Assembly (NCBI GenBank): GCA_030272585.1
Contig: BSYQ01000002.1
Coordinates: 2,418,001 to 2,482,000 of the forward strand
Direction of reading: 5' to 3'
Source of the DNA: Bryopsis sp. KO-2023
Taxonomy: Eukaryota > Chlorophyta > Ulvophyceae > Bryopsidales > Bryopsidaceae
DNA: 64,000 nucleotides
The stretch's first letter is position 1. Each line of letters begins with the position of its first letter. The translations under genes were made by a program, and so were the position numbers. Below, one piece after another: positions 1,718 to 40,200 of this stretch. The notes beneath the pieces are model-generated. The model searched no databases, was not told the DNA's origin, and worked only from the letters and a program-made list of their open reading frames with translations.

Positions 1718-2140
1718 TGTTAGTCTTTTAGCGCTATACGAGGTAGTTTGGGATAGAGCCGAGGGTGGCTGACGCATGTGGGTTCACGAGTAAGACAGAT
1801 TAGACCCAGAGTTTGGGGCATGCGTCAGCGTACTACACTTAGGGGTACTTAAGAGGCCCACTCGTTGTTTTGACACTCATAGTTACTTTGTAAGAACTCG
1901 GGATTCGTGGGATTGGTGTGTTCCCGCTTGTGTGTGTGTTTGTGTGTGTGTGTGTGTTAAGTGTTTGCCTGACGCAATCACTTCCCAACCCAAGTGCTCT
2001 AGTAGCGTTCACAACCGCGCTAGCTAGAGAGTTGTCTAAAGCAACAAACCCCACAAGTATACTTGCGTTAGCCAGCAAGTTATCACGAATCCAACCAACA
2101 CAGCCGACCACTATTGCGTCACCCACAAGCTTCACTATCA
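1718..2140 (+). mobile_element. 3' LTR of the upstream retroelement
   Basis: The 423-bp segment starts TGTTAG and ends CTATCA, giving TG...CA ends. Its last ~245 bases (a GT microsatellite, then a conserved stretch ending in CACTATCA) recur almost unchanged at the end of the solo LTR at 8410-8748. The 5' parts of the two copies differ. The sequence right after its end (2141 on) is the middle of another element's pol gene, so this LTR marks the right border of a nested insertion. The 5-bp target duplication should be CAGGA; the left copy is outside the window. Confidence 0.75.
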
Positions 2141-4996: not shown

Positions 4997-5882
4997 GGCA
5001 GGAATCGACAGGAGGTGTGACCATGGGAGTTGTGGCAGGATTGAATGTGGTTTGCTCAGTGGGTGCAGTGAAAGAGTTGGAGTTTTTTTTCAAGGGCTGT
5101 CCAGTTTCTGGTGATCAGTGTGTTGGAAGTGGAATTTTTCAGGCAGGGTTAAACCCTTAGGGCTGTCCAGTTTCTGGTGATCAGTGTGTTGGAGGTGGAC
5201 AAGGATCTCTTTTGCAGTTTCTGGTCAGGTTGAGATGAAAACTCTGAAGTTTGCAACCTGTTTTGGTTATGAAAATGGTTCACCTGTTGATACATTACAA
5301 GTCCAGTCAAATGGGTTTTTATCTTTGTGAGGTTGGTATTTGTTGCCACTTGAGTATGGCTGGTTAAAAGGACAGATACAGCAACCTGCATGGAGTTTTT
5401 ATTTCAGTTTTGAATATGGAAATTGGTTTGACAAATCAGTGGCAGAATTACAACACTTGAGGGGCTGGAAAAATGAGAGATTTGGGTTCTATTTCAGACT
5501 GCAGATGGAGTGCAGTGTTTGCTTGAAAGAAGGGCTCTGATTTCTATATTACAGGTCCATGGATAGTTTGTTGAGCTGAAACATTTCTGTGGGAAATTTG
5601 GTCCCTTTGAAAGTTATGGTTGTATCAGGGTGCATAAGGGATAGCAATTTCCAGTGGTAGGACTTGGTATGGTTACATTTATTTTGGACTTGATTATCAG
5701 TGACTGAAATCTGAAAGATGTTTTATTTTAATTCGATACATTGGATCAGGTCTGAATTGCAGATATGAGTTTTTCATTGGCAGAAGTTGGACTAAGAAGT
5801 TCTTCACTGATATGGGTTTTGGTTAGCTTGCAGTCTCTTGGGTTTTTCCTTTCTAAGTTGCAGTAGGGGCTACTGCAGTTCA
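4997..5882. other. Non-coding 3' region of the chromovirus
   Basis: No convincing ORF is present. The stretch contains a tandem repeat (5093-5205) and T-rich sequence. It lies between the accessory ORF and the polypurine tract, so it is probably a long 3' untranslated region of the element. Confidence 0.5.
5093..5205 (+). repeat. Two-copy 66-bp tandem repeat
   Basis: The sequence beginning GGGCTGTCCAGTTTCTGGTG occurs at 5094 and again at 5160, with nearly identical following bases (GATCAGTGTGTTGG). It lies in the untranslated 3' part of the chromovirus. Confidence 0.8.
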
Positions 5883-6438
5883 GGTGGGGAGGAATGTAGT
5901 GAATCGCCTGATTCAGAGCCTGCTGCGCCCTGAATCAGGAGATCTGACTGTAGGTTGGCGAGCTGGCAGCTCAGCAGGTGTCCCTGCTGAACTGGCAGCT
6001 CAGAACATTCTGTGATCTGACCTGATACAGTGATGGGTTCACTGTGTCAGCTCAGTAGTTGTCTGATCAGGGGATCAGGTCTTGTCAGAGGTGCTGCAGC
6101 AGGGTATTTGGGCAGCGCCTCTAGGGTATTGACACACTTGGTTTTAACCTAGCTTTTAACCTTGTTTGGAGTGCTTTGCACCTTGGTCTTCCTTTGTTTC
6201 ACCTTCAGCTTGGCTGGCAGACTTGCAGAGTCGCAGCCGTTGCACTTCCACTAAGTAGACTCGACTTGCAGGAAGGGTGCTTCGGCTCCGAAACCAGTTT
6301 GTTAGGCCCCTGTAGGTTTTAGTGAAGTCGTTGCTAAGTTTGAGACTGGGGTCACACACTTTCACAAACCAGAGAATTAATTTACACAGTGTTCTCTCTG
6401 AACTTAACCCCCTAGAACCCGTACTAACCCGTACTACA
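5883..6438 (+). mobile_element. Polypurine tract and 3' LTR of the chromovirus
   Basis: The purine tract GGTGGGGAGGAA (5883-5894) is followed by TGTAGTGAATC at 5895. The LTR (5895-6438, 544 bp) ends in TACTACA, giving matched TGTA...TACA ends. The solo LTR at 17020-18009 starts TGTAGCGAATC, shares the TGGCAGAC..CAG.GTCGCAG block and ends TTACA, so the two belong to one family. Short TAACC repeats precede the presumed transcription start. The next five bases (CACTC) would be the target duplication; the left partner is outside the window. Flanking DNA on the right is a LINE remnant. Confidence 0.75.
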
Positions 6439-6506
6439 CACTCGTACTGCAAAATGAGTGCGACAACGTATCATATAGGATCTATTCAAATTTACTTTAA
6501 TATAGA

Positions 6507-7992
6507 ATGAAAATCATTGGAGGAGATGAGGTTATTTCGAGTTATCAGACGGGGTTCAGGGAGAATTATAGCACACTCCTACAGGTGTTTCTACTGTGGA
6601 GTCTAGTATGTTGTTATGCTCGAAAAAAATCGAAGAGGTTACTAATCCTCCTTTTTGTAGATTTTTGTTGTGCGTATGACTCGGTGGATCACTCTCGTTT
6701 GTGGGAAACATTAGTGGAACTAGGTTATGACCCGAAATTTTCTCGAATTTTCTCTAAATTATACATTTAAATGGGCTAAAGGGTGCGCTCGGCTGAAGGG
6801 GTTTCAACACAGTTTCGCCGGACGGCCGGAGTAGGCCAAGGGGACCGGGGCCCCCCTGCTGTTATTAGGAGAATCTAGTGGGGCTCCTTCGGAAGGGGTC
6901 CAAATCTGTGAAAGTTGAGAACAGGGAGATTGAGGGTATTTATTACGCAGATGACTGCGTCTTACCAACGGATTCAATAAGAGGGGTAGACGAAAAAATA
7001 GAAGTACTAAAAAAATATGAAAAAGAGGGTGGGGTGAGTATGAATTCAGAAAAGAGTGTTTGCATGGTGGTGAACGGGGTATTTGATGATGCCAGTTCAC
7101 CCATAGAAGTGGTATATGAATTCAAAAATCTAGGTATTTGGGTGAGTGATAAATCCGAAAAGTTTTCTGACAGTCATTTAGGTCGGTTGGAGGAACTCAT
7201 GAAAAGTAAGAGACGGGAATATTTCGAATGGGCATACCGCCTTGAATTCAAAGATCCCAAAGTTCTTTTGCATGGATTAGACATTTTTGTATTAAGTGCG
7301 ATTCTGTATGGTTGTGAGGTATGGGGTGCAGGGATTTACCTTAGCGTTTTCGACAAGTTGGAAAAATTATACCTCAGTTGTTTACGTTGGATATTATGTC
7401 TTCTGGAGCGGACTCCAAAAGGAATCGTTTTTTGGGAATTCAACACCTTCAACATGGAATATCGCATACAAGAGAGAGTTCTTAAATTTTATAATAAATT
7501 GATTTCTTTTTTTGAGAACTCGCCGGTTTGTTTTCTTGCGGATAGAATGGTAAAACGATATAGAAATATGGGTCGGTCATATGGAAATCTTTTGATTAAG
7601 ATGGTGGAACCTCTAGGGAGTCGTTTTGTGTCGTGCATTAATAATGGGGAGATTATTGACATTCGGGATTGGAGGGAGACTAAGAAAGATGTTTTGAGAT
7701 CTGCATGGGTGGAGTCGGTGTGTTTCAGAGAATGATAAAACTTTATTAAGAGAGAAGAGAGGCTGGGTTATTTTAGCCAACAATTGAAATTTGTTTACGT
7801 TGGGGCAATCGCACGTTTCAGATGCGGTGTTCACTTCCTTCATGTAGAAGCTTATACAATGAAAAGAGTTAACCGGGTAGAAAGAAGTGATAGGGTGTGT
7901 TGGTTTTGCAAGAATCTAGTGAAGATGAAATCCACTTTCTGTTCAAGTGTTTCTCATAAACCATTCTACGTTGTACCCTCATGTAAAGCTTA
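6507..7992 (+). pseudogene. Decayed LINE (non-LTR) reverse transcriptase
   Basis: Three pieces in different frames make up one LINE-type reverse transcriptase. The first (6507-6770) has the QTGFRENYST and FVDFCCAYDSVDHSRLW blocks typical of RT motifs 1-2. Between 6771 and 6877 the GVGQGD block survives out of frame. The second (6878-7735) carries the catalytic YYADD motif near its start and the thumb region. The third (about 7784-7970) resembles the C-terminal segment of many LINEs: an ARFRCG..F block, C-x2-C, then EDEIHFLFKC in a shifted frame. Frameshifts separate all pieces, so this copy is dead. No apurinic endonuclease domain is visible. The chromovirus LTR abuts its 5' side. Confidence 0.8.
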
Positions 7993-16210: not shown

Positions 16211-16469
16211 GGTTCCTATCAGAGTTGTGCCGATGTCGTTTTTGCGACAACGACAACGGCCGTTAACGGTGTTAACGGTTAACAGCCGTTGTCGTTGTCG
16301 CAAAAACGACCTCGGCACGACTCTGAAACGTTTTCCAATTATGAGATGTGACTTCAAGAACGCGAAAAAACAAGTAGCTACGAAAGTGTGAGCGAACTCG
16401 CCTATCCAGTGAGTGTGATTTGATGGAGAGTTGTGCGCCGTTGCAACGGCGCACAACTCTGGTTCCTAT
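16211..16469. mobile_element. Fold-back TIR element, 9-bp target duplication GGTTCCTAT
   Basis: GGTTCCTAT occurs at 16211-16219 and 16461-16469. The 241-bp element between them (16220-16460) begins (C)AGAGTTGTGCCG and ends CGGCGCACAACTCT, which are inverted repeats. Each end is itself a hairpin. The left end folds over about 105 bases (16221-16325) around a GTTAACGG core. The right end is a near-perfect palindrome at 16427-16460. There is no coding capacity. A 9-bp duplication is typical of Mutator-like elements, so a non-autonomous Mutator-like MITE is the best guess. Confidence 0.7.
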
Positions 16470-17295
16470 ATATCTTGCTGTGTGTGGGACGATATGAGAT
16501 GAGGCTTTCCATTTGAGGGACAAGGAGCGGGAGTTCAAACCCAACTTCATTCGATTAAACATTGTGCCCCCACTCCATAATTTTGGAATAGCATGAAGCA
16601 AAGAATGATGCGAGATTTAGGACCGACTATTGGAGATAATCTGCAAAGATTCGACCGCTGTGGCCAATGTTTGACCAAGGACGAAATATGCTAGATTTCT
16701 TCAAATCTAAAATGGTTGCTCACACGGGCTCGGGATCACTACCTCCCAAAAGGGAAAACGGGGTGAGGGGGAGTTCTCTACATCTTGACGAATTATGGCC
16801 CGAGATCAAGGCTGCACGTGATGGTTTTTTACAAGTTGGCTTCGAGCGGCACATTCAGTTGACTATAAAAGTCCGAAAAGCATCACATTTCACGGCAACA
16901 TATTTCAAGAGGTCCTTTACCTGTTTTAGACGATTGTAGATGTTCAAGAGGGAAACTATAGATGAAGAGAGGCTTTACGACTCTGGTATTCTGGCAATGA
17001 AGGCTTGTGTTATGCTAACTGTAGCGAATCAGGGTTTTTGCCAGCCCTGCAGTACGTCAGCAGGCTTGCTGATAGTGCTGCAGTACTTTAAGTAGGAGTC
17101 TGGCTGCCCTGAGGCAGCGTACAGTCAGTCAGGATGTGCTGTCAGTGAAGTAGTACGTGGACTACTAAGCTGTCAGCTAGAATGTTCTAGAAGGTCGCTC
17201 AGCACCACAGAAATGGCCGTGGGGCTGAGCTGGGCTCTGATTGACAGGACTGCAAGATCTGATAGCTTGCAGTACTGATGCATACTGATGTTACA

Positions 17296-17779
17296 GCCTA
17301 TGATCAGAGATAGGACTTTCCGGTTACGGTACCGTAAACCGTACCGTAACCCCACTCCGGTCACTTACGGTTACGGTAGTTACGGTCCGGACCGGAGTGG
17401 TTTTCGTGCTCGGAACCGGACCACCGTACCACTCCGTACTGCTCCGGTACCGGACCGTACCGACCGTAACCACCGTACCAACCGTAAACCGTAAATAGTA
17501 ACCCCCGCAGGGTCCCGAGAACCCAAAGGAACCCAGGGGGATTCGAACCCACGACCTTACAGACTACAGCCTAACGCTTTAGCACTGAACCACACTACTT
17601 CACGATGATTTAGGGGCTACCGTAGCTATACCGTACCTGTTCCGTACCGTAAAAACAACATATTACTCCGGTTACGGTACGGAGTTACGGCCGTAATACG
17701 GAACCGTAACTCGACCGTAACCGGACCGGACCGTAGCCGGACCAGAATTTTGGCCCAAGTCCTATCTCTGCCTATGATC
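17296..17779. mobile_element. Palindromic TIR element with CCGTAAC-motif arrays, 10-bp duplication GCCTATGATC
   Basis: GCCTATGATC flanks the element on both sides (17296-17305 and 17770-17779). The element (17306-17769, 464 bp) begins AGAGATAGGACTT and ends with the reverse complement AAGTCCTATCTCT, a 13-bp perfect TIR. Both arms are filled with short variants of GGTTACGGTACCGTAAC in both orientations. A tRNA-like sequence sits near the middle. No ORF of interest. It lies inside the solo LTR, so it is younger than that LTR. Confidence 0.8.
17533..17605 (-). other. tRNA-like sequence in the palindromic element
   Basis: On the minus strand an A-box-like TGGTTCAGTGCTAAAGCG is followed about 30 bases later by a T-arm with GTGGGTTCGAATCCCCC (B box). 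The matching 5' acceptor strand is not present, so I call it a tRNA pseudogene or SINE-like module rather than a working tRNA. Confidence 0.55.
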
Positions 17780-18014
17780 AGTTGGGATCAAGGCTGCTAG
17801 GGTATTCTATAAGTTCTTGGGGTTTGAACGTTCTTGTAACTTAACCTAACCTTGGTTTGGAACTTATCTCGCCCTTGAACCTTGCTGGGTTCAAGTGTCT
17901 CTCTCATGGCCGTTCAATAGAACAGACGGTTCAGACTGGCAGACCGACAGGGTCGCAGTCTTCGGTGGACTGAAGCGGAAAAAGCGATCTGCAGGGCAGA
18001 ATCGTTACACTAAC

Positions 18015-21000
18015 ATAGATTTGATCAATATCGTGGTGCAACGCTTGTATATACAATAAAAAAGAATAGGGGTCTTGAAGGGTTCAAAATAAGTCATATT
18101 GGTGTGGGCAACATTCACGATATTGTGTAAAATCGGTGGGACATGAAGCGTGAAAAAATATTTGTGGGAATCAAGTGTAAATGAGTGATGAAAGAAGCGG
18201 CAAAAAAAATGTCATTGTTAAGAAAAGCTAATACATTGGCATGAAAGAATATCCACGAATCGTTCAAACTTTGAACGTGATGGTTCAGCTGCGATCATCG
18301 CAATTAGCGTGTATGTTTTTGCCCGCTCATACAAATGCCAGAATACGGAGGGACAATAAATCCTAGGATTCATGGCGTTACTGTATGTTGACGGAAGTGT
18401 GAAGAAGAATGGAATAGAAAGTTTTTGTGCAATGGTGTCCCCTGTAACGATGCAGAACTAGACTAGTACTACTGGCAGTTCTACCTTGAGAAGGGTCCAC
18501 CCACAACTACTACAACTGCTGCTGCAGCAGCTAAGAATACTGCTGCTGCAGCTGCCATGATTCCTCTTGCTGCATGCTGAACGAATAGTTCCAGAAGATG
18601 TAGCAAGGAATGTGGATGAGCAAGTAATGACTGCTGCAGGCATCATTACGTCAAGAAGTTAATATATCAGATGTACGACTGGTTGCTGCAAGCAGAGAGA
18701 AGTGCAGCAACGAGCGGACGCACAGTTGAGTCAGCAACGCTGCAAGGGAAAGCATGACGGCTGCAAAGCAATGAAGTCATGATGGGACTCCTACAATAAT
18801 ATTACTTTCCCTTGCGCGACAATGAGGAAGGTGTCGTAACACCGTTACAGGCAAGCACAACAGTCTATGACTGACATCGGGAGTGCTGCGGAGATTGCAG
18901 CAACATCGCGCTGCAGGAGATGCAGCACGTAAGAGGGATGCAGCGTCGGCGACAGAGATCACGTGATACGTCGACAAGCTGGCATCGAAAGCAGGAACTT
19001 CGTGTGAGGCGTCAGCCGTCACTGCAGCGAGAGTTAACGAAGGCGCGACAAAGGCGCGACAAACCTTCTAGAAGACGCGAAGAGAGGCTGAAAGAAGATG
19101 ACATGCTGTCGGAGTTCCTAGTCGACTAGGCGGAAATACAGTCAGGAATAGAGGATGCAAGGAAATAAAAGAGGTTGTTGTGGTTGTTTGTATGTCTTGG
19201 TTTTGTGTAAAAGAGTTCCTCCAAAGTCGTAAGTCGTTCGAAAAAAGATCACTCGTTTCATCCCCTCCCTCTCGCCCATACTATGGTACTATCACTAACG
19301 TTAGCACGCGTTGACGAGACAAACAAAAAACATCCCGGCCTCCACCTCAATACATCAGGAAGTGGATCGAAACTTACGGCTCTACAAGAGGTCGAAAAAT
19401 TGAGCTTGGACTATTAGATGGGGACAGACTCGTTTTAGAAAGGAAGGCTTCGTGCATTGCCGACCTCAATCTTACATCTCTTAAAAGTGCACCCAAATAT
19501 TTCCTTGACCTTGGCACAAGCTCGATGCAACTTGTCAGTCGTCCCATTGTTCGAAATTGCTTCTCACTGTGCTGCCGCATTTACCGCTATATTCACCAAT
19601 TAATTCTTCATATTCATTAGTGACTAGGAATCGAGATTAGCTCCTCCATGGATTGATTAGAAATGTGCACATTAGCCCTATTGTATTTCTGCAGCAAACT
19701 CGTGGCCTTGAAGTATGTTGGATATAGAATTATATTTCGAAATGTAGTCATTTATGCTTTCCTTGCATGAGTTACTTAATGGCTAACAAAATTATATCGT
19801 GGGTATCAACCCGCCGCCAATCACGTTGCCCTCAATATTGTTATCCGTGTAGGTGAACAAACAAACACTTGTGGTTTGGGGCACGAGCAAGGAGGGTTCA
19901 AGAGCTCAATAGGGGTGCAGCTAAGCGAAAAAAGGCCTCCAAGAGGCAGCAGGGGGTGAGAGGGGCCAAGAGATCAACAACGCCAGGGGAAAGAGACGAG
20001 TCTCCAGAGGAGGAACATGTGTGGAAGGGCGGTGATGAGACAGGGAGGAGTTTCTCGTAGGTAGGATTTCGTCAATTTTATTTGGAAGAAAGATGGGTAT
20101 CAGGTGGTAGTTGAATTGGTCGTTCCGGAAAGGGTTGGAACTAGATCATATCGGACTAGTTCGATAAGTGGCTAATTGATCCATACAAGTGCACCGTGTT
20201 GAAAGTAGTAATAAATCATTGTCAACTTGGTCGATATAAATTTGACCTCCCCAAACTTTGTACTCTAGATACCACTTGCCAATAACGCCGGAAAGGATCA
20301 AATCTTCCTGAGGGGCTGCGTTTTTGTTGATTCTCTTCGCTAACCTCTCCAATTTCGATCTAGTTTGAGAAATTGTCCCCACGACAAGAAGTGGGAGAAG
20401 AAGCGGACTAATAGTGCTTCGACAATTAGTCAATCATTATGACATTACGGAGCTATGGAGCAATAAATTTTGGCTGTGTGGCTCAGGAGGATTAAGCCAA
20501 ATGAAATGTTTTAAAATCAAGATGGAAGATAGTGTTAAGAAGGGTTATTGCACAAGGGACCACAGGGATGTGAGAAGAAAAATACAACACTCCAGAAAGT
20601 TTGGAAATGAAACGATGTTGTTTGCAATTGAGGGGGAAATCCGCCCGAGGATTTAATGCGAAGAAACATTTTGATGATGATGTCTTGAAGTACAACATAG
20701 CACATGAGGCATTTCTTCTCGCTTTTTAACATGATGTGCTCCGAAATCCTCATCCCGGAATATGATATCGTTGCATTCTCCAAAGACAACGCACGTGAGA
20801 GCCACATCACACCCTTAGAAAAGTTTTTTTGATTGGGACAGTTGCTTAAGGGTTAGGGGCGAGAAAACTCGTGGGGGCAGTTTGAATAGTTAAGGGCCCC
20901 ACAAAATGATCAAATAGAGGTATTTGACACAAGATGCTTGCCCTCGTGTTATTGAACGTCCGATGTAATAGTTTTTGGAAACACTATGTGTCATCTTCTC

Positions 21001-22860
21001 TTCTCCTCAAGTCCGACCAATCCACGTGAGCACTCATTTTCCGTACGAATTTAATGCATTGACATTGTTGGAGTTTGTTAAGGAGACTGAAACATTGACC
21101 AACAAAGTTTCCGGAAACAGGTGTAACATTTCCCCACCCAAGACTAATGATCGTAAGTCCTGTTCTAACGATCCACATATGTTAATTTAACGTGTTTTAA
21201 CCTCCAAGGAGAAGAGTTTCAAAGTTAGGGAATGGTTTGGCAAATGAAGTGTCCGAGGGCTGATTTTCCAAGATAGGAACCAATACCCCATGTTCTTTGT
21301 ATGTCCTCTAAATTGAAGCAGCTTGTTGGTGCACGAGATAAAAAAGCCTTATGGTCCTAAAAAAATGAAGGTGCGGGTGACATTGATAGCATGCAATTAA
21401 GCGAGTGGGCTAACCGAAACCTTTTATTGTTTAGATTGAATCCAACATGACACAGTTAGTAATAAACAAATTATGGAGTTATCAATAAGGGTTCAGTAAG
21501 TACGAGTAAATAAATGTGGAATGAGGTGTGGGAACTGTATTTGAAGCATCTATTCAAGCTTAGACCATGAAAGTTTGACATATTTAGGTGATAGGAAAAG
21601 AACCCCTCTTCATTACTGCCAAGAACATTGTAGCGTTAGCAAAACTCGAAGGTAATATGCTAAGGCTAATTATTGTCTGAAAATGTGGCTTGATTTGGTT
21701 GTAATTATTATCTACTATGCTGGAACCACATCTCAGGCGTATGAATATGAAAAAGCGAATTGAGATTGAGGAGACCTCGTAAATCGTTTTGATTGGATTG
21801 ATTTAGGAAACTTTTTTCGTTCATTGAATATGATATGGTCGTTGCATGAAAGTTTTGCATTCCAAGCACTAAGTAAAACCAACACAACTTATATGCCAAC
21901 AATTATGTTTCAAACAAGAACCTACCTTCGGACTTACAAGCCCAAACTACTTAATTGTTGACAGATTGTGAGTGGAGCGATATCGTTAAGGATGGCCGAA
22001 AGTGATGTTATAACTCATAACTTATTACAACGGAGGAACCAAAACTTATCTTGGGGTTTTCTTTTCTATCCCAACATAGACTACTCAATAATGACAATCG
22101 ACGAAAGCTTTTTTACGTACGAAGAGTTGAGTCTCTTAAGGTGCCACAAGGGAAGCATGGCGACGAGAAGGACATACCTTCGACCACGACAAAGCTAAAA
22201 GACTTTGCGTGGCATGAAAGGCTGCTGTCCACCTCCTCCGCTGTTGATCAAAGTCGATGCACCCAAAAACTGCCTTAGCGAGTTCGGATTCTGGTATTCA
22301 AACGTCTGGGACTTTCTGCGGCCTTGTTGCACCATACCACTAAAGTGCTTAGCCACAAGGACAACAATCAATTGCGTTTGAAAGGCCAGATGGACTTCCG
22401 CATGTTCGCTATTTCAAGCATTCATTCTTTGGTGCTGATGCTGGACCTTTTGTTGCCCTGTAGGATCTTAGTCAAGGGGGATCAATTCTCTCGTTTTAGA
22501 TTATTGGTTTCAAGCTTAGTGTCTTCAGAAGTGTCCCCGTTTCTCAATCATCAAATTAAGAATTCACAATTGATCCATGCTAAGATTACCCCAAGGGGCA
22601 ACTCATGAAAAATAAAGTTAAACATCCATAATCTCTACTTTCGTATTTAAGTTTTTGCTTTCAGATGGTGCTCTTTGAGCGTTTGCGTCTTACTTTTCCG
22701 TATTCAGTTTTTTCTTTTTATCTCCCACAGAATATAAGATCGACCTATAAGGATCTGAGAAGAGAATGAGATGAGAAAGTCTTGAAATTGTTTAGATAAT
22801 CAGCCCTCGCTATTGCAAACATGTAAAGGTATGTACTTAGAGATCAAGGATTGCTACTCA
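18015..22860. other. Gene-poor 4.8 kb
   Basis: No recognisable gene. A CTG/CAG-rich patch lies at about 18500-18720. A 69-codon Arg-rich ORF at 18920-19129 is too short and compositionally odd to call. The rest has short ORFs only. Confidence 0.5.
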
Positions 22861-23289
22861 GCTCGCCGCCAGACATGGGCTGAGACCTCTGTGCACAGGA
22901 CAGGACAGAACAGACTGTCTGTTCTGTGCACAGGGTCAGACCTGTGCTGCACAGGTGCACAGACCTGTACAGCACAGCACAGACAGGGTCTGTGCAAAAT
23001 CTGTGCAGTTTCTGTGCAGTTCTGTGCAGATTCTGTGCAAAATCTGTGCAGATTCTGTGCAGTTCTGTGCAGATTCTGTGCAGTTCTGTGCTGTGCTGTG
23101 CAAGTCTGTGCACCTGTGCAGCACAGGTCTGACCCTGTGCACAGAACAGACAGTCTGTTCTGTCCTGGCCTGTGCAATTCCGCTGCACAGGACAGGACAG
23201 CACAGGGTGCACAGAACCTGCACAGAACCCTGTCCTGTGCGATGCACAGGACAGGGGTCTGTCCTGTGCAGCCCATGACTGCTCGCCGC
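22861..23289. mobile_element. TIR element made of CTGTGCA/TGCACAG arrays, 9-bp duplication GCTCGCCGC
   Basis: GCTCGCCGC occurs at 22861-22869 and 23281-23289. The element between (411 bp) begins CAGACATGGGCTG and ends CAGCCCATGACT (imperfect TIR). Nearly all of it is built from CTGTGCA or TGCACAG, often spaced as TTCTGTGCAGTT or TCTGTGCAAA, in both orientations. ORFs run through it on both strands because of this periodicity and are not genes. A GACAGACTGTCTGTTCTGTGC block near 22908-22930 recurs inverted near 23139-23165, giving a long fold-back. Confidence 0.75.
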
Positions 23290-25793
23290 TTCATACTCTG
23301 CGGTTCCTGAGATTTTTCTTTCCTGCTAGAACAACGTTAACTTGCCGAATCAATCGAGGAGCTAGTGGAAGTCAAATCAAGTCTTATGAAGTCTTATGAC
23401 GTGCTCTACGGTTATGTTAGGTGTCTAGAAAGCGACACAAGGTCCCCGTTTACCCTGGAAAACTTTACAGACAAAACTTGGCGTGTCGTAAGAGATGATG
23501 TTTTGGGAGATTTAGCTTTTTTAATATGTTTCAACAAATATTATTCGAGGTGAAAAAGCTCGAATCCTCTTGAATCACGACTAACGGCTTGTACGCAACG
23601 AGCACTAAATAATTTATCGTCTGATAGGTTGAACGTCACTGGAGAATGATCCGAGGCAGATTAATGAATTGGTAACGTTTTTTAATCCATAATCAGGTGC
23701 TCCTGATCCGTCAAAGTACCATCAATTTAGTGATGCGATCCTTGAGGTGGGATCCACGTAGGCTGATATAGATATTGGTTTTCAATCAACAAGTTGGTGT
23801 CCAAAATGATCCAAGTGAGACCTCTGGCGTTCTTAACTTTGGAAGAGCGTCCGCCCCCAATATGATCGTCTTATTGGGTACGGCCGGCACTCAGCGTGTC
23901 TCGCGCACAACACGGGTCTTCGTTTAGCAGCTAGGGTGGTTCGTTTCCATCGAGAAGATGATTTCCTCCCCGAGAATGAAGACGTCCCGCAAAACACTTG
24001 GACGCCCCTCCTTGGCAGGTATACGTGGCATTGAAATTTTGTGGTCCCCACCACTCTGTTTTAACATTAGCATCCATACCGACAATCAATGGTCCTGAAT
24101 CGTGATCCACTCAATCCTTGCCAAATTAATTCAGGAAATCCAAGTCGTCTCCCGTACGATCATACATATACTTATATACATAGTAAACCGAAACAAACGT
24201 GTGGTGCCCAGGTCTATTGCATCGATGAAGAGTGCCAGGTATCGAGAGTTAGAACCAGCAAATAGATAGCATAGAAGATCCCACTTAAACACACCATAAT
24301 TGCCACGAGAGATTCCTCACCGGATGGGAAAAACACCAAATATGTTGTAGGAGATCTAGTCCGTATAGAGGTCGGAGGATCCTCTAGGTGCATAACGTTA
24401 GACATATGTGGCAACTCCCGAAGCATGTGATCCACACCATGACAATTTCTGTGACAGTTCCATTGGAGTACCCGAGAACCATCAACTTAAATAAGAATTA
24501 TTCACACAAAGAACAAGTGAGTTGTCCCAACCGGAATCCCCGCCAAAAAAAAAGAAAATGTGATCGTCTCCATGAATCATGTGAATTGTCTAATACCCCC
24601 TTCAAAACCCAGAAATCGGAAAAGAATATCTCACCCCTGAAAATCGGACATAGGAAAAAACCATTAGATAGCGAAAAGCTAGTAGTATTGAAAGTCCCAA
24701 GTATTTAAGTCAACGAGGTACGTGCGGTACCGCATATATATAGCTACCATATGAGGACCACGATTGTTGACAAATCACAATTTTTAACATCGAAATTGTT
24801 CTTCGAATTGAGATTTTGTTCCCCCGAAAATGATTTATGATATAGATAACCGCCTTTTGTGGAAAGAAACGCGACAGATATGATAGAAAGTGATAGGAAA
24901 ACCGAGAAAGTAATTTTGGTATTTTGGGTTGGAACTTGTTTCATATTATTTCTCTTCACAACCAAAATTGAAGAAAGCACGACAGGAATGTGATCGAGCT
25001 ATAGGCATCTTTTTTCAACCGGAAAAATTTTTGGTTAACTGTTCACAATACATCAAGATCGATTGATTGACGAGGGCTGAGCGATAGGAATCTTGTTGTA
25101 ACAGCGAATTCTGGAATAGGTCTAGATTGGTTTGTTGGGTTCACGTCATGAAGCAAGACATCAGCATTATTGGGAGGGTCAATAAACACACGGCCTTACT
25201 ACTAGAGGCAATAGATATGTTGAAAGGGGTGGCAGCCCATGTACCGCGATCCTCTACATTGAAAAAAAAAAAATGTCAAGCACAAGTAGAGATGGGGGAA
25301 AAGGGGGAAAGTCCACCTGTTATGAGTCCAAAACGCATTCAAAAAAAAGGGGTCCATGGACATTGCTCTAGATGTCGAAACGAATCAGCTGCAATCATAT
25401 TTAAAGAGTTGTGTACAGCGAAAAGGAAGCAGAGTCAGGTCAAGGTTAGGTAGCCCATTATGAAGCGCAATTACTGTTGATTAATTTGTGGCATCCCGAT
25501 TTTGCGAGCGGGTTTGGGCTTCAAGGATGCATAGAAGAAATGATGATATACATTCCTTTAGAAAGTCTTGGGAAAACTTTGAAGGGTTCGAGTAGCGGTG
25601 GTAAAAAGAATGTAACAGCAAGCAAAAAACAAGACGATCTAGGAGAAGTACCACTCTTTCATGAAATAAAAAAGGACAAAGTTGAGTAAGAAACACAAAG
25701 CCACGTTCGTAGTGGCATCTGCGCCGAGCTCCGAGATCAAGGTTCAAGTGGAGACACAGCGAGTTTGCAGCGGTACGATCGCTGTGTGAGGCC
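23290..25793. other. No clear gene
   Basis: Open frames at 25127-25453 (108 codons, with a CSRC motif) and 25477-25689 (70 codons) precede the retropepsin remnant and could be decayed gag. They show no family signature I can name. The rest is featureless. Confidence 0.4.
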
Positions 25794-26243
25794 ATGAAGA
25801 ATCAACTTTCGTTCAATGCTGCGAAAACCAACGGAGTCGGTCCGCTTGTGAGCATACTATGGATCCGATCACGATCAGATCGGTCTCCGATCAACCGGGA
25901 GACCGATCATGATCGTGATCGGCCGATCACCGATCTGATCGGTCGCCGATCAGGTCTGGCAGGGCCGATCATCGATCACGATCGGCCGATCACCGATCTG
26001 ATCGGTCGCCCAACCTGATCGGCAGTTTTTGATCGGCCTGATCGTGGTCGGCCGATCAAAAACTGCCGATCAGGTGCCGACGGGGTCCGACGCTTGATCG
26101 AGATCGTGATCGGGATCGTATTATCCGATCAGATCGGTATCATGATCAATTGATTCCGATCATGATCGGTCCCATGATCAATTGATCGGTCAATTGATCG
26201 GTCCATCACAAATGCCCACAAGTCACCACCCGAAGGTGTTTCT

Positions 26244-26320
26244 GGAGGTGTAAGGATTCGAACCTAGGACCTCACTGACTGGAATCAAGCAAATCAACGC
26301 TTGGACCACCCTGAACCACG
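26244..26320 (-). other. tRNA-like sequence, left arm
   Basis: On the minus strand a D-arm/A-box-like GGTGGTCCAAGCG, an anticodon-arm-like segment and the B box GGTTCGAATCC are followed by TTACACCTCC. The complementary 5' acceptor strand is missing. Sequence matches the plus-strand copy at 26404-26481. Confidence 0.6.
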
Positions 26321-26403
26321 ATCAATAGGTCCTCCGTGTTATTATATACCTCAGTTTGTCGGACTGACTGATCAGGTATATAATGACACGGAGCACACTC
26401 TAA

Positions 26404-26481
26404 CCGTAGCTCAGAGTGGTCTAAGCGTCGATTTGCTTGATTCCAGTCAGTGAGGTCTTAGGTTCGAATCCTTACACCTCC
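26404..26481 (+). other. tRNA-like sequence, right arm
   Basis: CGTAGCTCAGAGTGGTCTAAGCG (D arm and A box) is followed by GGTTCGAATCC (T arm and B box) and TTACACCTCC. It is a near-identical inverted copy of 26244-26320. The acceptor stem does not close, so function as a tRNA is unlikely, but the internal promoter boxes look intact. Confidence 0.6.
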
Positions 26482-27112
26482 AGAAACACCTTCGGGTGGT
26501 GACTTGTGGACATTTGCGTAAGACCGATCAATTGACCGATCAATTGATTATTGGACCGATCATGATCGGAATCTTAAATTAAATTCCGATCAATTGATCC
26601 ATGGCCGATCATGGTCGGAGCTGATCGGATCAACGGCCGATCAATCGGCGTTTCACCGATCTTGATCGACCGATCACGTGCCGACAGGTCGCGACGCTTG
26701 ATCGTGATCGTGGTCGTGATCGGAGCTGCCGATCAGATCGATAATCGGAAGCCCGATCCCGATCACGATCAAGCTTTGATCGGCCGATCACGATCATCGA
26801 TCAGGTTTTAATCGGCCGATCACGATCACGATCATCGATCATGATCGGTAAAAAAAAAAAAAAAAAAACCCGATCATTTTTAGAATCATGTGGAACGAGA
26901 TCGTGTCAGGTCAGATCAGTGAAAAGACCTGTCCTGACATCGAAAATGGACGGCCGATCATTTCCGATCACGTCCATAGTATGCTTGTGAGCCAACAATT
27001 GATGGCTAAAGTAAAGATCAATGGAATTTCGAAGATGGACACAACCCTTATTGACTCGGGCTCCGCTTGTATTTTCGTGCCCTCGGCAAAAAAAAAAAAA
27101 GAAAATGCCTAA

Positions 27113-30050: not shown

Positions 30051-32600
30051 CTTTTTCTCTGCTTGTGTTTTTTTCCACTTCGGTCGAAGTATTCGGACGT
30101 GTTTTCTGACTTAATAGGGGTATTCGGATATCTCCAATTGAAATCTATTTATAGTAACCTATTTCATAGTGTCTTTATGACTACAGTTGTTACTTTTCAC
30201 TTTCAAAGTGTTTTAGCTATTTATAAAAAAAGTAAAAAAATGAGTGAAAGAAGTAAGAAAAAGTAAATTCTTTTTTTTACTTCTTTTCAATTAGCTAGGC
30301 CTTTAGGCAAAATGAATACCTGAACAATCAAAACTCCTGCTCAGAGGGGGGTGGCCAGGTCACCTCGATTTTTTTCTTAAGGAAAAGGAAAGTTGAGTGA
30401 AAGCCATGTCACCCGACTTTCACTTAACTTTCCTTTTTCTGTTTTTTTTTGTTCTATTTTCAGAACACTTTTCGATTGCGAGTGAGAAATAATCCTCCCC
30501 CCTCCCTCCCCTAGAAAAAAAAATAAGTAAATAGAAAAAAAAGAAAGTCGGTCACCTGAATGCTTTCCCTCTCCTGTGTTTTTTTTGTTTTTTTTTTCGC
30601 CCTTGGTTCAGCTTAGCGAAAAAAAAAAGTCGAGCTTCGTCTTTCTTCAGGCCAATTTTTTTTCAGATGCTCCGACCAACCTGGGGGGAAACAAAAAATC
30701 GAACCATGAGGACTTATGTTTTTGTTTTTGAAGCAATCAGACATTCTAGAATTCATTTTATTCTATTTTTATTATATTTTTGGGAAAAAGCCTTCACCTC
30801 TGCCTCATTTTTTTTTTTACTAGTAATTTTTTTTCCAGTTCTGGTGAGGTCATGACGGGAAGAAGAAAAAAATGAGCTAAAAAAAAAGAGAAGCCCAAAA
30901 AGAAAACAAGCTAAAGAAAGAAGCTGCTGGAAAAAAGAAAGCTTGAAAAAAGCAACTTAACAAAAAAAAAGATTGAAAAAAAAGGAAGCAAACATTGCTA
31001 GGGAGTGTTTGTATTCGTGAATAAATTCGACTCGAAAGAAGAATATGATCTTGAATATTATATTTTCAGGTGATTATTTTTTCAACACCCCCCCCCAGCA
31101 CTGAATAAGAAATATTCTTAGTTTTCATGAAGAAATTTTACAGCACAATCAACAAGTATTCCATCCACTGTCATTCTTTATCAGTGAATCGTGATACACA
31201 GCAAATGCTGAAACGGTTTTTTTAACAACTGGACTGACAGGACTCACTCACTCTTTCTTTCTTTTTTTTTTTTTTAAAGGACAATGCTTTGCTTTTTGAA
31301 ACACCCAGCTGGAGCCACCACACCTTTTCAACCCACCCACCCCCCCTCCCCCCCAAAAAAAACAAATAAAAAACCGAAAAAAACCAAAAACTAAACCAAA
31401 CACACCTTTGGAGAGGGATAACCTCGGGTGACAGGCAGCCACTCACAGCAATTTCCATTTTTTTGCTGATTTCTGTGAAAACAGGGAGGGGTTTTCGGCT
31501 CTTTTTTCCTGGAGCGGAAAATGGTAAAAGAGGAAAGGGTGGAAAACCTGGAGAAAAAAAAAAACAAGAAAACATTTGCATTGGTGAGACTCTGCCGATA
31601 TCTCCCCTTCCCCCCCCCCTTTTTTTTTTTTTAGGTAGAAATAAAAAACGTGGGTTTCTGGGAAAATATGAATCTTTTTGGCAATCTGGAAAAATGTCCT
31701 GTCGCTGGGGAGGATGAAAAGTCGACCTGTTTTTTCTTATTTATTTTCACTCTATTTTTGGGTATCTCACCATGACTGTCTGGGAAGTTTTTTTTTTCAT
31801 TTTCATTGGGCAGGCTTTTGGAATTTTAAAAGGGGGTTGGGGAATTAAAAAATAAAACAGAGTGTGGATGTTTTTTTTGCTTGAAACAAGAAAAAACAAA
31901 GAGAAAAAAATAGAGCCCATTTTTCTCTCAGAAAATCTAATATAAGGGAAAGAGAAAGAAAAAAAATCAGAGGGTTTTGTTATCTTTTTTTGGTTAATAA
32001 ATAAATAAATAAGGTAAATGGTTTTCCATTTATCTAGGGATACAACCATTCTGCTTATGATTCTCATTTCTCATATATTTACTCCTCTTTCTAGTTTTTT
32101 TTTTTCATTTTTTTTTTGGGGGGAAAGGGGAACAGAGGGAAAAAAAAAAAACAAGGTCGAAGAACTGTCAGGAATTTTTTTTCTAATTTGCTTCCCACAC
32201 TCTATTTTTTAGTTTTGCTGTCGAAAACCACTGCACCTCATTCTAAAAATAAATCGAAAAAAAAAAAGCTCCATCCCGCTGGCGATCCTTTTCGACGACC
32301 TCCCCCTGCGCATCGAGAAAGAAAAAAAAAACAAATAACGAGCAAGCAGTTAACAAAATAATCGAAACAGAAAGAAGAAAGGAAAAACCATACGCAGAGC
32401 TCTTTTTTTTTCATCATTTTCGATTCGAAATCCTTTTCACCGGGGCGACCGCCGATCGGCAGAATGTTTTCCTTCCTACCTTTCTTGCTGCTCGTCCATT
32501 TTTTTTCTCGACCCTTTGGCGCTTCCCGTCGGGGGGAAAAAGAGAAAAAAGAAAAAAGAGAAAACCCAGAAACGAGTCTGAAGAAAGATCAACGGGGGGT
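30050..32600. repeat. Second A/T homopolymer-rich block
   Basis: Dense A and T runs with C and G runs resemble 11939-14308 in texture. Near its right end a stretch reading TCTCGACCCTTTGGCGCTTC (about 32506) resembles TCTCAACCCTCTGGCGTCGCTTC at about 13844, suggesting one repeat family. The 119-codon frame at 32464-32823 is not credible as a gene by composition. Confidence 0.4.
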
Positions 32601-34217: not shown

Positions 34218-37200
34218 TCATAAGATTTCCGCAAAGTTGCACTTCCAGAATCCATCCACAATTGAAAACGTTTTTCCAGCGGGCCTACAAAAAAGGGTGC
34301 TGAAACCGACGTTCTCAGGAACTGTATGGACGAACGGAACGAGAGTGTCCCTCGTGAGACCTTTTTGTCCCGTGCAATGTTGTAAACTGTTGGTTTTGTT
34401 GCTATTGCGCCGATCACGGCGCCGCTCAACTCTGGGACTTAATTGAGCCTGTAGACACATGAAAAGACGAATTGTTAGTTTCTTGTTCAAAGGTGTTTTT
34501 TTTTTTCAACCAAAACAATGGACAAGCACAGCAAGAACCTGAGAGAAGAAAGCTCCTCAAGACAGGAAAGGATGATGTACAGCTTGGTGGATTCGCTGGG
34601 CACTGGCATTTTAAAGCTCCTTTTGGCAAATCCATTGTGTGCCTCCCATCCAACGTTGCAATTGGATCCAAGTGCAGACCGTCCACAGGGTCTGCTCCAT
34701 TTCAGTACTTGGCAGGAAGGCTTGGTTTCTGCTTCCATATCATTTTTGATCGAGAGGATGGCTCCCGCCTTTTCTGGCATATCATACGCTTCTTCTTCAA
34801 CCTTCTACAGACCCAAGAGAAACAATTAACTTCCTTCCATCCAGAAAGCGTCACATATTCCATTCAGAACTCAGGAACGTCCACCATAATTTCAATTGAC
34901 CTGTGCTGTAGACTTCAATCGATTTTTCTCCCACACGATTTTGTCTGCCCAAGATTTTGCTCCTTCCATGCAATTCACTTCTCCCAGCCGCCTCGAAATA
35001 GCTTTCAACTGAAAGCACAACAGAATAAAATGGCAACGTCAACGACGAGCAAATATTTTAAGGTTTTCTAGACGACTTTTCGTTTTATTCGATCTGTGAG
35101 TCTGCAAATTATAGTACAGCCGCCATGAACTCACCTGTTCTTGCACTATTATACCGGGCAAACCTCCCTCCTGCACAACCCCGCGATTCGCTTGGTTGAT
35201 GCGATCCACATCCTTCTCCTTCGTGCCTCTTAAAACTTCTATCCAAGATATCACATCTTTTTTGATGTTCTTTTCCACAGCCCCGACGCTGTGTCCGGAC
35301 CCGAACGTCTCGGTTTCTTTTCTCAACTTCCCAATGTCTTCTTGGCATTTTGCGAGCTCTTGCTGAAGATCAGCCTTTTGGGTTTCTAGATCATCGCTGG
35401 CATGCTGGAGGTGTTCTATCTGATATGAAACAGAAAACACCTCATGATGGGGGACCTGGGGTTCTGCCAATACCTGCAAAACCAGAAAAGAACTACAAAA
35501 GAACTAAAAATGTATGTACATTTTATCCATTCATTGATTTTTTAGTTGGATTCTTGTCTTCCCTAAAGCTCAAAGTGAACAGGAGGAGGAAGGGGGGCAG
35601 AATGCATTCTGCCTCATCAATGGTTAGAAATAACACAACCTGTGAGACTACTGATTCCGAAACAAACAGACATTCCTATCCCAGTGTAATTTGTCCAATT
35701 CATCCCAAGGGCTCAATAACATCAACACCCCCCCCCATCGCAGAAACAGCCGAGATTAAGGAAAAAATGAATGACCTGCTGCTTGGTAACCTCTTGTTGC
35801 TGGTTGTCGTTCAGCTCGCGCAAAGCTTCCACTTTCTTCCCGAACTCTCCGACACTCGTTCGGAGTCCTTCGACCTCCCAAAGCACGTTGATCACGTTCT
35901 CCTAGCACTCACGTTACGAAAATTACCCAATTCGTACCCAAAACTACCCGCGGACTACCCGTTTTTTAATGGCATGAATTGGGTAATTTTGGGTATATTT
36001 GGGTATACCCTAGTTTGGGTATTCTATGGGTACGATTTGGGTAGATTTGGGTACGATTTGGGAAGTTATCGGAGTTGCTTGGTACGGATCGGGTAGTACC
36101 CAAACGATACCCAAAGTTGGTGGGTATGAATTGGGTAGTACCCAAACGATACCCGAACTTGGTGGGTATGAATTGGGTACTACCCAAACGATACCCGGAC
36201 TTGGTGGGTAGGAATTGGGTACTACCCAATTCATACCCATTCAATGTGGGTAAGGACTGGGTAGTACCCGATACATACCCACAACGAGACGGGTATGCAT
36301 TGGGTAGTACCCAAAAGATACCCAAAGTCGGTGGGTATGTACTGGGTCCTACCCAATCCTTACCACATTGTATGGGTATGAATTGGGTATTATACAGAAA
36401 GTACCCTATATTTACCCATAAACGCATAGTGGGTATGTATTGGGTACGCTTTGGGCAGCCACCCGCTATCAATCATTTGTTATAGATCAGGTACAAATCG
36501 GGTGGTGTCTAGTTCAAACCTAATCTGCCAAGAACAACAAAAGTGACAAAAAAGAAATAATTTACAAGAACACTTGTTCCTTCATTCACATCCAGCCCTC
36601 AACCTCCAAATGCATACAAGTGCATCTATTTGTGCACATCAAAACAAGCAACATCCCTCATTCAAATTTGTTTGGGACCTCAATTCTCAAAAAGGGGTGT
36701 CGAGTCTAATTCCCTTTGAAGAGTCTTCAACCACCTTGTCCCCCTCAGTTCTTTTCGGAGATTGCTAGCCTTGGATTTTCAATATCTTGAACCCAATCCT
36801 CTGACTCTTCTTTTCTGCATCAGAGGAAATGCACATACAAGGTTTGGCACGCTTCAGCTGATGCATTTTTTTCAATCTTTTGTTTATTCTTTTTCTGACA
36901 AGAGATTTCCAACTGGCATTACTGGGATCTGATTAGATCCCCCCTATGAAACACGCTGTTTCAGCAAAGTTTCTGCAAGAATAGATTTCTGTGAGGCCTA
37001 ATAAATTATATGCTTAAAGTAGGAACATGGATACAAATACCTGGAAAATCAAAGAACTCTGTTTTTCACCGTATGTGTGAATACACTTTCACACAAGAAC
37101 AAGAACCGGGCAGCCCAAATGTTGATGTCACCTTGTCCCTTCTTATATGTTATTTTCTCGTGTACAGGGCCACACAGAATGCAGGTTCATCCTCTCAATT

Positions 37201-40200
37201 CCAATCTGTCCTGAAAAAGGCTTTTTCTTAACCAAAGCAAGCACATATGCTCGCCTTACAAACACCTGAAACAAATTTCATTCTAAGGAGCCCTCCCTCC
37301 CCCTGTAAAAAACGTTCACAGGCCTCTCTTTAGGGCCAAAAAAAAATCAGAAAGGCAACAACATCATAATACTTTTTTTAGATGAAATATCCCTATTCAT
37401 GTTGCTGCTTAAACCTTGTGCAGTTTTATTATGTTACCTGACCTAGAATATTGCACATGCTGGGCAGAGAAGTGGAACATCACCGACCACGTGGGTGAAG
37501 CCTCGACATAGGGAGGAAGCCGACCGCCTCCACGAAAGCATCATAGCCTGTGCCCATTGACGCATGTCAGCGATAGATCCTCAGGGTGATACCAGCGTTT
37601 TCATCAGAGGCCCAAGGCACCGTCCAATGCTTCCAGGTCGCATCGCAGGCGCGACTCTGAAGCGGGGATGGCGAGCTTGTAGGTCGCATCACAAGCGCGA
37701 CTCTGAAGCGGGGCGAGCAAGCTGCGCGAACAGAAACGTTGTCGTTGTTCAACAACGCAGACAGAGATCTTCGGCAAGTTTAATGAGTCCGTCATGTGGC
37801 TTCTGCGCCGCAATTGTGTGACTTACTCTAAAGGAGTAGGGCTGGGTATTGCCCACATTGTACCCATTACGTGTCACATTTTGACACGTTTTGGGCACGT
37901 TTTGGGTATGTTTTGGGCACGTTTTGGTCGAATCTAGGTAATGTATGGGTACATGTGGTAGTTATGCCAAAAAGTACCCAAACAATACCCAAAACGTACC
38001 CATGCTTTTGCATAGTTTGGGTCAATATTGGGTACTACCCACAACGTACCAAATACGTACCACATGTGGGTATGCTCCGGGTATATTTGGGTAAAGTTTG
38101 GGTACCCAACAAGTAGTTCTGCCAAAAAGTACCCAATCTTTACCCAACACGTACCCATCCCTATAATTCTATTGGGAAACATTGGGTACTACCCAAAGCG
38201 TACCCACGACATACCAAGCATATCTCGCTTACCATAGGCCTGTGGTATGTGTGCGGTACTTACCCAATTCTACCCACTATTGGGCATGGATTGGGTATGG
38301 TTTGGGTACAGTTTGGGTAGTGAGGTGGGTAATTACCCAAAACGTACCCAATGTTGGGTACGGTTTGGGTATCTGATGGGTATTGTTTGGGTACTTGGGT
38401 ATGTTGTGGGTACGATTTGGGTAAAAGTGCCGTTACGCGAGTGTAGCAAGCAAATACGCACTCACGAATTCTAACAATTGTTGCAACAAGATTCAGTCTA
38501 TCACAGTGTGGACCTTCAAGGTCTTAAGTTAATGCAAGTAAAGTCTGTTTATAATAGAAAATGAAACTAATTATTCCTTTTGGAATGCTTTTGACTAGGA
38601 GCATGCGTGTGTGCTCCTCACCCGATCGGCAAGTTGCTGATGCAAGTATACCATGACGCCTGCCAAGAACGAAATCTCGCTCTCCGTTTTTTCTTCTAGG
38701 CAGTCGTTCCGCATTTTTTCGAACGCCACATTTGCTGGTTGAAGTTTCCCTGAGCAAAGTCACAACGCAAGAAACCCTCATCGCATTTTCGAGAGACAAA
38801 TCAGTCTTTAACCCAAACAACGACACGACTTCACGACCCCTGAAAAGGTCACCGAGTTTCGCCACTCTTGGTCAACATCTGTTTGCAAGTCCGGGCGGTA
38901 AAAATTATGTGTCTGTGATTTTCTGTTTCTCTCTATGTCTGGTATGTGCGTGCATTACGTTGTTTCTTTTACCTTGCTCATTCACAGATAATCGCCAACT
39001 GGAGCTACCTCGCTTTGGAACCGGATGCGAGCCAGACAGACTACTCGATCCACCTATCGAACAGTAGCTCAAATCGAATTGATTCACTCCCAGGGCACTG
39101 TGAAGTCGATCGAACTTCGGGATGGAGGGGCTACTCGCATGCAAAACAGGTCGACTTCCGTAGAACGGGTTAGTTCTGACCGCAAAGAGGGTGCTGGGTG
39201 GTATTTTGGTGGGGAACTCCGAGTAACCTGATTTTTCTGGACGACACAACCAAGCACCTCCTTCTTGCTACTTATTTGCTTAATGAAAAAATTGTGGGGG
39301 GTTTTCATTTTTTTTTCTTTGCGAGATATCATTTCATTTTTCTCTTGCACTTTTCACCACGTACGTTCTCATCTCCCCTTCCCCAAATGCACAAGCCTAC
39401 CTATTTTTTGGTTCCAATCGGTGCATTCTTTGTTTCCTATCGAGCGCTCAATCCCACAGTGAAACTTACGTGTGATGCTGTCGGTCTGGTCAACATCCGG
39501 ACTCGCCACCGACGATAACCTTGCTTTCTCCAGGTGCTTCATTGACATTTGCCCCGTCGTTAGCTGCCCCGCATACTGAACGGAGGGTATGGAAGTCCCC
39601 AACTTTAGGGAACTCCTCACACTCGCAACATTGGCCATACTCGTCGTGTTCTCTAACAATAAATCTGCCAGATGATCTGCTCTTCTCTCGTGTTGGGCGT
39701 GTTGCATATCGTGTGGCCCCCTGACAAGTGAAGCCTCGCACAATACGCCCTCGCAAGCTTCAGTGATTGTGGAATTGACGTCGTGAGGAATCGTTGGTCC
39801 CCCCCATTTCTCTCTGGGTCGAAGCTGCATGAAGCTGCATCTGCTGAAGAATTTCTAGATCAGACTCAAGTCTACTGTTGTCAGTGTTCATCCTTCCCAT
39901 AAGACTGCGCAGCTCCACCGATTCTCCAGGTGGACAAGAATCCGGTTGCGTTTCCAAGTCTTTTATCGCCAATGCCAAGGGGCAATGATATTCCTCAGAC
40001 TCGGTACGTTGTCCTTGGCAAGATCCCAGCTCCTCAAACAACGTGTTTCTTGCTCTCGACAAGCCGTCATTTGCAGGTTTCAAATCGACCGAGCCAGACT
40101 CTGAAAGGCAAATTTCGTATTCCAATTCATCCGCTCTGTGCTCGAGTCTTTGGGTCAAACTGTCGGCTTTGGAGCATAAGGTGGTGACAGTTTCAGCGAA

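Follow-up and report, generated by a model that had tools for sequence, protein, structure and literature searches.

Why do four short transposons in one stretch of the genome of the green alga Bryopsis sp. KO-2023, none of them carrying a transposase gene, each hold an array of a different short word? The stretch, hereafter the window, is 64 kb of contig BSYQ01000002.1 (positions 2,418,001 to 2,482,000 of the forward strand; G000:C2:2418001-2482000 in our numbering), within a 91.1-Mb assembly of 28 contigs. A first-pass annotation had picked out the four elements, here E1 to E4, by their terminal inverted repeats (TIRs), flanking duplications and motifs repeated in both orientations, and had suggested that each motif is a transposase-binding site keyed to the transposase of its own family. 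Our analysis indicates that E1 to E4 are very probably non-autonomous members of separate hAT families residing in one genome, and that their words follow the family transposase.

A scan of all 64 kb by fixed rules, which asked for CA...TG ends, an exact 8-bp duplication, a TIR agreeing at 10 or more of 12 positions and a length of 60-9000 bp, found the four elements again, together with one match within a further motif array (36242-37860). The same scan gave no match in the reversed window and none in 20 block-shuffled windows. Relaxing the TIR threshold to 8/12 added a single weak match, at 30692-32118, in A-rich sequence. E1 (16220-16461, 242 bp; elements and duplications are given without strand) has the TIR CAGAGTTGTGC/GCACAACTCTG and lies between two copies of GTTCCTAT, at 16212-16219 and 16462-16469. 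Its layout is a left palindrome, a linker and a right palindrome, built with the words AACGG and GTTAACGG; the first-pass annotation had placed it correctly at 16220 and had read its left half. E2 (17305-17770, 466 bp; TIR CAGAGATAGGACTT; word TTACGG/CCGTAA) is flanked by CCTATGAT at 17297-17304 and 17771-17778, and E3 (22870-23281, 412 bp; TIR CAGACATGGGCTG/CAGCCCATGACTG) by CTCGCCGC at 22862-22869 and 23282-23289. E4 (25853-26983, 1131 bp; TIR CATACTATGGA/TCCATAGTATG) is flanked by CTTGTGAG at 25845-25852 and 26984-26991. No open reading frame matching any known gene was found in E1 to E4, and in that sense they lack genes, as first annotated; their longest ATG frames run to 11-135 amino acids, the longest being a repetitive frame in E3. 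With lengths of 242-1131 bp, no transposase gene, many copies, and intact TIRs and duplications, they have the characters of miniature inverted-repeat or other non-autonomous transposable elements.

The duplications were tallied in 68 fetched copies, the window's own four included, with ends fixed at CA...TG; the sample consisted of 8 of 40 scored loci for E2 and of the best 20 of 40 scored for each of E1, E3 and E4. An 8-bp duplication was exact in 58/68 copies, and 7 of 8 positions agreed in 7 more. By family, exact duplications flanked 14/20 copies of E1 (the other 6 agreeing at 7/8), 8/8 of E2, 18/20 of E3 and 18/20 of E4 (with 1/20 at 7/8). Three copies failed, two of E3 and one of E4, no near match being found at their ends. 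The 58 exact duplications comprise 56 distinct sequences, since two pairs of E4 copies have common flanks, and among the 56, T occupies position 2 and A position 7 in 59% of cases (symmetrised). The target preference of hAT elements has the consensus nTnnnnAn, and their TIRs are short and begin with CA, often as CAGNG; Mutator-like elements make a 9-bp duplication. The TIRs of E1 and E2 start with CAGAG and those of E3 with CAGAC/CAGTC; E4 starts with CATAC and has the CA only. With ends at CA...TG, the exact duplication did not go beyond 8 bp in any of the 68 copies. The 9-10 bp reported in the first-pass annotation must therefore be corrected to 8 bp, the longer reading having arisen because terminal TIR letters can match the flank too. 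By their CA...TG ends, their nTnnnnAn-biased 8-bp duplications and their hAT-domain partners, described below, E2, E3 and E4 are classed as non-autonomous hAT elements; the ends of E1 fit a hAT-like element.

Counted against 500 dinucleotide shuffles of each short element, the words first proposed for E2, E3 and E4 are strongly enriched: CCGTAAC occurs 9 times in E2 (shuffle maximum 3), CTGTGCA 26 times in E3 (maximum 6) and GATCGG 46 times in E4 (maximum 10). The proposal fares less well in E1, where GTTAACGG occurs just 3 times (maximum 1), AACGG is commoner (7, maximum 4), and bare CGG is not enriched (9 versus a shuffle maximum of 11). In all four elements the words stand in both orientations, with variable spacers.

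The families to which these elements belong were sought through the hAT dimerisation domain PF05699. Of 185 candidate places, 150 were scored and all of these lay above the cut-off, and none of 14 control genomes gave a match. Stretches were fetched at nine PF05699 loci, among them L074, selected since an E3-type end adjoined its PF05699 match. Because partners were selected by domain, the presence of PF05699 above cut-off in 6/6 of them is a selection criterion, and the matching ends are the result. Complete partners number six, of which four belong to E4 and one each to E2 and E3; they have the TIR, both arms and the family word in common with their short element. The E2 partner, L069, is 4990 bp long and agrees with E2 at 14/14 TIR positions; the E3 partner, L074, is 5727 bp long and has E3 ends. 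The E4 partners, all with E4-type ends, are L070+L075 (6773 bp), L071+L082 (6850 bp), L072+L083 (5991 bp, TIR off by one base) and L073+L084 (6965 bp), hereafter named by their first part. All six, and a seventh full-length element, L085, have an exact 8-bp duplication, which was a search criterion for L069 and L085 and a check for the other five. With both strands searched, E2 aligned to L069 at the two ends, over 124 bp at 95% and 105 bp at 91% identity, and E3, in inverted orientation, to both ends of L074, over 171 bp at 91% and 117 bp at 90%. E4 aligned to L070 over 110, 164 and 441 bp (100, 97 and 90%), covering both ends, so that it retains both ends of a 6.8-kb hAT element. The middles of E2 (17429-17666) and E4 (26119-26543) are filler that does not align to L069 and L070, respectively. 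Candidates for the autonomous elements with the same subterminal motif, for which the first-pass annotation proposed a search, were thus found for E2, E3 and E4, and none was found for E1 among the loci fetched.

As the words had been picked on the window elements or by eye, the ends of the partners provide the test of their specificity. Counts were made in the terminal 500+500 bp, or in the whole element if it was 1000 bp or shorter, against 300 dinucleotide shuffles. TTACGG occurs 15 times in E2 (shuffle maximum 5) and 35 times in L069 (7), and CTGTGC 34 times in E3 (8) and 26 times in L074 (6). GATCGG occurs 46 times in E4 (10), 27 in L070 (7), 28 in L071 (10), 40 in L072 (9) and 19 in L073 (7), the last having a loosened word, TCGG, with CCGAC enriched (30, shuffle maximum 14; 0-11 elsewhere, within the shuffle maximum). 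Each element therefore holds its own word 15-46 times, and words of the other families 0-1 times; the maize word AAACGG appears 0-2 times. GATCGG is sparser in the middles of the E4 partners, at 0.7-1.1 per kb. E3, L069, L074 and E5, a fifth motif-array element described below, show an excess of same-strand neighbours 10-11 bp apart; in the ends alone this excess is kept in L074 and lost in L069. Helical phasing as a general rule was rejected, as there is no such excess in E2, E4, L070-L073 or L085. Within L074, at about 1566-1720 and 2306-2700, CTGTGC recurs at 11- and 22-bp steps in the transposase gene region, perhaps in introns.

Linkage between transposase groups and element ends points in the same direction. 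Counted within 5 kb, on the genome stretches that the end lists cover, 13/15 loci of a 788-amino-acid group lie near an E4-type end, 6/9 loci of a 350-amino-acid group near an E2-type end and 3/4 loci of a 146-161-amino-acid group near an E3-type end. Protein identity among the four E4 partners, measured against the first, is 53-64%, and the residues C65, C68, H85 and H89, with BED-like spacing, are invariant in these four and in P0001. Sequence searches of the PDB with one E4 partner and with the E2 partner found Hermes, one search also giving three weak ribosomal matches, and a profile search against PDB sequences gave four matches, all Hermes by title.

These families are present in many copies. 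Exact left-end patterns number 356 for the E2 type, 223 for the E4 type, 211 for the E3 type and 88 for the E1 type genome-wide, and backward-pattern controls gave 0 for each; the E2-, E3- and E4-type counts take in full-length elements. For E2, the first look gave 576 candidates, of which the best 40 are 99-100% identical, so that at least these copies spread recently; most of the 40 scored copies of E1 (of 107 candidates) are 78-85% identical. Paralogous empty sites were found for both of the copies for which they were sought, the E3 copy L030 and the E4 copy L065. In this test a 72-base join of the flanks, less one duplication, matched L070 once in each case, with 1 mismatch in 72 for L030 and 0 for L065. 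Consistent duplications and these two empty sites speak against copies arising as plain satellite, the outcome that the first-pass annotation had named as fatal to its proposal. L070+L075 also contains a second, convergent frame of 476 amino acids (about 5093-6521 of the reverse-complemented join, minus strand, downstream of tandem repeats), and the E3 copy L030 is inserted in a paralogue of this frame region. In the left array of L070 (reverse complement, about 740-1127), a nested insert of about 390 bp, TGATACGAACG...CGTTTGTATCA, has GGCAG on both sides, as judged by eye.

Since the same word and the same ends recur on full-length, transposase-carrying relatives, the word is very probably a docking site of the transposase, and the words of E2, E3 and E4 are predicted to dock that of their own family. 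In the mechanism we propose, the short element would keep CA...TG TIRs as the sites cut by the family transposase, and its arms, dense in the subterminal repeat, would be the expected target of the DNA-binding domain, which in the E4 partners is a zinc finger of the BED type. A full-length member of the family would provide the enzyme in trans, and the short element would be excised and inserted at a new site, giving rise to the 8-bp duplication. As the word follows its transposase, it would differ from family to family. We infer movement in trans and family exclusivity, and that E1 obeys the same rule. The first-pass proposal of a family-keyed binding motif thus gains from linkage, from words that do not cross between families and from the conservation of the E4 core, all of which predict binding from sequence; E1, lacking a partner, remains outside this support.

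Conservation was examined in the E4 clade, in the left arms of L072 and L073, which represent two subfamilies of the E4 partners and align gap-free over 330 bases. With the first 12 bases set aside, columns lying in CCG/CGG of L072 are conserved in 88/99 cases, versus 116/219 elsewhere, and 0/308 circular shifts of the mask reached as high a value (highest 0.78); with the mask taken from L073 the count is 88/97, and again 0/308 shifts. As whole triplets, CCG/CGG are conserved 27/33 each way, compared with 38% for all triplets, and when the arms were slid by 4-40 bases CCG/CGG matched at 6% and all triplets at 3%. In the pooled count no such preference extends to other triplets containing CpG (CGC 36%, ACG 35%). 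Among the 13 CCGATC sites of the L072 left arm, 9 have become CCGACT, CCGATA or CCGACC in L073; of the others 1 is the same, 1 reads CCGGTA and 2 are without the core. As the CCG/CGG columns are conserved while the flanking letters have changed, the core of the E4 word looks selected, its outer letters appearing to drift.

Other explanations of the arrays have been considered. The arrays may bind a host factor or have a regulatory role, in the transposase promoter or in silencing, rather than serve the transpososome. The presence of words inside L069 and L074 agrees with this, and the protein that binds the subterminal repeats of En/Spm regulates that element too (PMC2613891). However, one host factor common to the families should go with one common word, so the family-specific words, which track the transposase family and are kept by short elements without genes, count against it, and we regard this explanation as unlikely. 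Somewhat less probable still is that slippage multiplied a functionless word into satellites within transposons whose transposase needs the TIR only. The arrays are partly tandem, E3 having 11-, 21- and 43-bp repeats by Tandem Repeats Finder and four elements the 10-11 bp excess noted above, and satellite-like arrays also occur in the interior of L074. On the other side, the words lie in both orientations with variable spacers, E4-type arrays are without the 10-11 bp excess, every E2-E4 partner has terminal arrays, and the core is conserved in the gap-free pair of arms while the rest drifts. Satellite expansion without any transposition is contradicted by the duplications and by the empty sites of L030 and L065. 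We attach next to no probability to the placement of E1 to E4 in a superfamily with 9-bp duplications (Mutator-like) or in a new one with 9-10 bp: flank and TIR letters in the window copies permit such readings, but the duplication never exceeded 8 bp and the partners carry hAT domains.

Assignment of the four elements to hAT families whose transposases dock on their words has to be set against a number of observations that weigh on the other side. The TIR of E4 opens with CATAC and not with CAGNG. E1 gave no alignment to the seven full-length elements on either strand, and no long copy was present among the 40 scored of its 107 candidates. L085, whose TIR CAGTGTTGTG is close, was rejected as an E1 partner, as its word is GGATA. 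Words are also found in partner interiors: the middle of L074 has 6.5-7.4 per kb, that of L069 4.2. Linkage has a background, 4/13 loci of the 788-amino-acid group lying near E2-type ends and 3/12 of the 350-amino-acid group near E4-type ends, perhaps owing to nesting. The BED finger is seen in the E4 clade only, as the Cys-His pattern and one sub-threshold Pfam zf-BED match (1/4); zf-BED had no match in five scanned fragments from the E2 and E3 partners, whose genes look split. A structure model from five sequences is poor (mean pLDDT 46), and a fold search with it gave TM-scores of about 0.2, all 12 matches at E <= 0.001 being Hermes chains. When an aligner was used on four arm pairs, CCG/CGG were conserved at 73% versus 40% for all triplets, and non-homologous arms gave 28 versus 17%, an excess hardly smaller than in true pairs; the claim of constraint therefore rests on the gap-free pair. 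A short element, moreover, gets its parent's words by plain descent. In Hermes, PMC10368747 reports that about 70% of activity remains when the inner sites of the left end are mutated, which also favours slippage, that no BED domains were seen bound to the right-end repeats, and that its authors consider auxiliary binding inside the ends unlikely.

Subterminal repeats are well described in hAT and CACTA elements, and E1 to E4 are not a new class. The first-pass annotation knew of no described class with this look; both Ac/Ds (PMC3260210) and Hermes (PMC10368747) already have it. Ac/Ds elements have 11-bp TIRs, 8-bp duplications and subterminal AAACGG hexamers, to which the Ac transposase binds cooperatively (PMC3260210). 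The elements described here resemble them in their short TIRs, 8-bp duplications and a subterminal word repeated in non-autonomous elements, and Ds2 keeps both ends plus filler, as do E2 and E4 (PMC3260210). Unlike Ac/Ds, there are several families in one genome with separate words (TTACGG, CTGTGC, GATCGG, GGATA), for which binding is a prediction, and arrays take up the greater part of E3 as well as the arms of E2 and E4. In Hermes, a BED finger binds short end repeats, AAG(T/C) sites numbering 17 at the left and 14 at the right end, and in the transpososome the BED domain sits on the left-end repeats (PMC10368747). The E4 partners are like Hermes by domain, sequence and fold searches, and the words here are longer and denser than the Hermes repeats (PMC10368747). 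For four hAT proteins, the motifs obtained with protein-binding arrays agree with the proteins' own subterminal regions, and most of the motifs contain CGG (PMC8097297). The words of E1, E2 and E4 end in CGG, as in such hAT-derived CGG-binding proteins, whereas the CTGTGC of E3 lacks it, and the words here are read from sequence while those motifs were measured (PMC8097297). The Herves transposase also binds a subterminal motif (PMC3143072).

We found no account that compares several hAT families within a single genome by their words, most subscription journals lying beyond the search. The present case offers four hAT families read at both ends and a fifth read at one arm; all of these have a word and a transposase of their own. 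E1 is likely to be a sixth, three of the families have matching short elements, and some have recent copies. It extends single-element studies of Ac, Hermes and Herves to a comparison within a genome, with many predicted binding sites per family, and makes testable both the DNA reading of BED-type domains and a possible role of subterminal words as a barrier to cross-family mobilisation. The word may also provide a quick route for assigning orphan short transposons to their enzyme. More tentatively, and with slightly less than an even chance of being right, we suggest a recognition code, in which each hAT DNA-binding domain has drifted along with dozens of dispersed copies of its word, so that the words have diverged in parallel with the domains and families cannot cross-mobilise. 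If true, pairing domains with arrays across hAT loci would yield a recognition table for BED domains without an experiment on each.

Two further hAT groups were noted. L085 (525-4295, 3770 bp), with CAGTGTTGTG ends and the duplication GTTGCGAC, exact by search criterion, has GGATA 23 times (shuffle maximum 7), and L087, of which 1.2 kb was read, has GACMGG 39 times (maximum 6) in a stretch picked by eye (about 450-1050). L086 has ACCGTAA words, but 5.1 kb of fetched sequence contained no pair of TIRs.

The fillers of E2 and E4 contain tRNA-like sequence. A perfect B box (GGTTCGAATCC) occurs on the minus strand of E2 (17539-17549) and twice in E4 (26254-26264, minus; 26461-26471, plus), where the two boxes lie in the arms of an inverted pair (26152-26351 and 26374-26573). 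The pattern is absent from all seven full-length elements, and these sequences are possibly captured tRNA-derived pieces. As tRNA genes they were rejected, ARAGORN and Rfam finding none in the window; under permissive settings E2 gave none, and E4 a single doubtful tRNA-Gly*.

E5 (35906-38443, 2538 bp, without strand; TIR CACTCACGTTACG) is a motif-array element of another kind, with TGGGTA in both orientations and a 3-bp duplication, TAG. Its 1000 terminal bases contain 62 copies of TGGGTA (shuffle maximum 10), 30/37 same-strand neighbours being spaced at 10-11 bp. Two copies of this type with both ends read have the duplications TAG and TGA; the guessed right end missed in two more. From its CACTC ends and 3-bp duplications E5 resembles CACTA elements such as En/Spm, from which E1 to E4 differ in having 8-bp and not 3-bp duplications. 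In En/Spm, an element-encoded protein binds subterminal repeats that vary by family (PMC2613891).

Elsewhere in the window, two kinds of reading frame mark the DNA as eukaryotic. At 2114-3955 lies a fragment of a gypsy-type retrotransposon that includes RNase H, integrase and a chromodomain, and a frame with F-box and WD40 domains (53813-54937) has only one database relative at E <= 0.001, in a lineage that may be thinly sampled.

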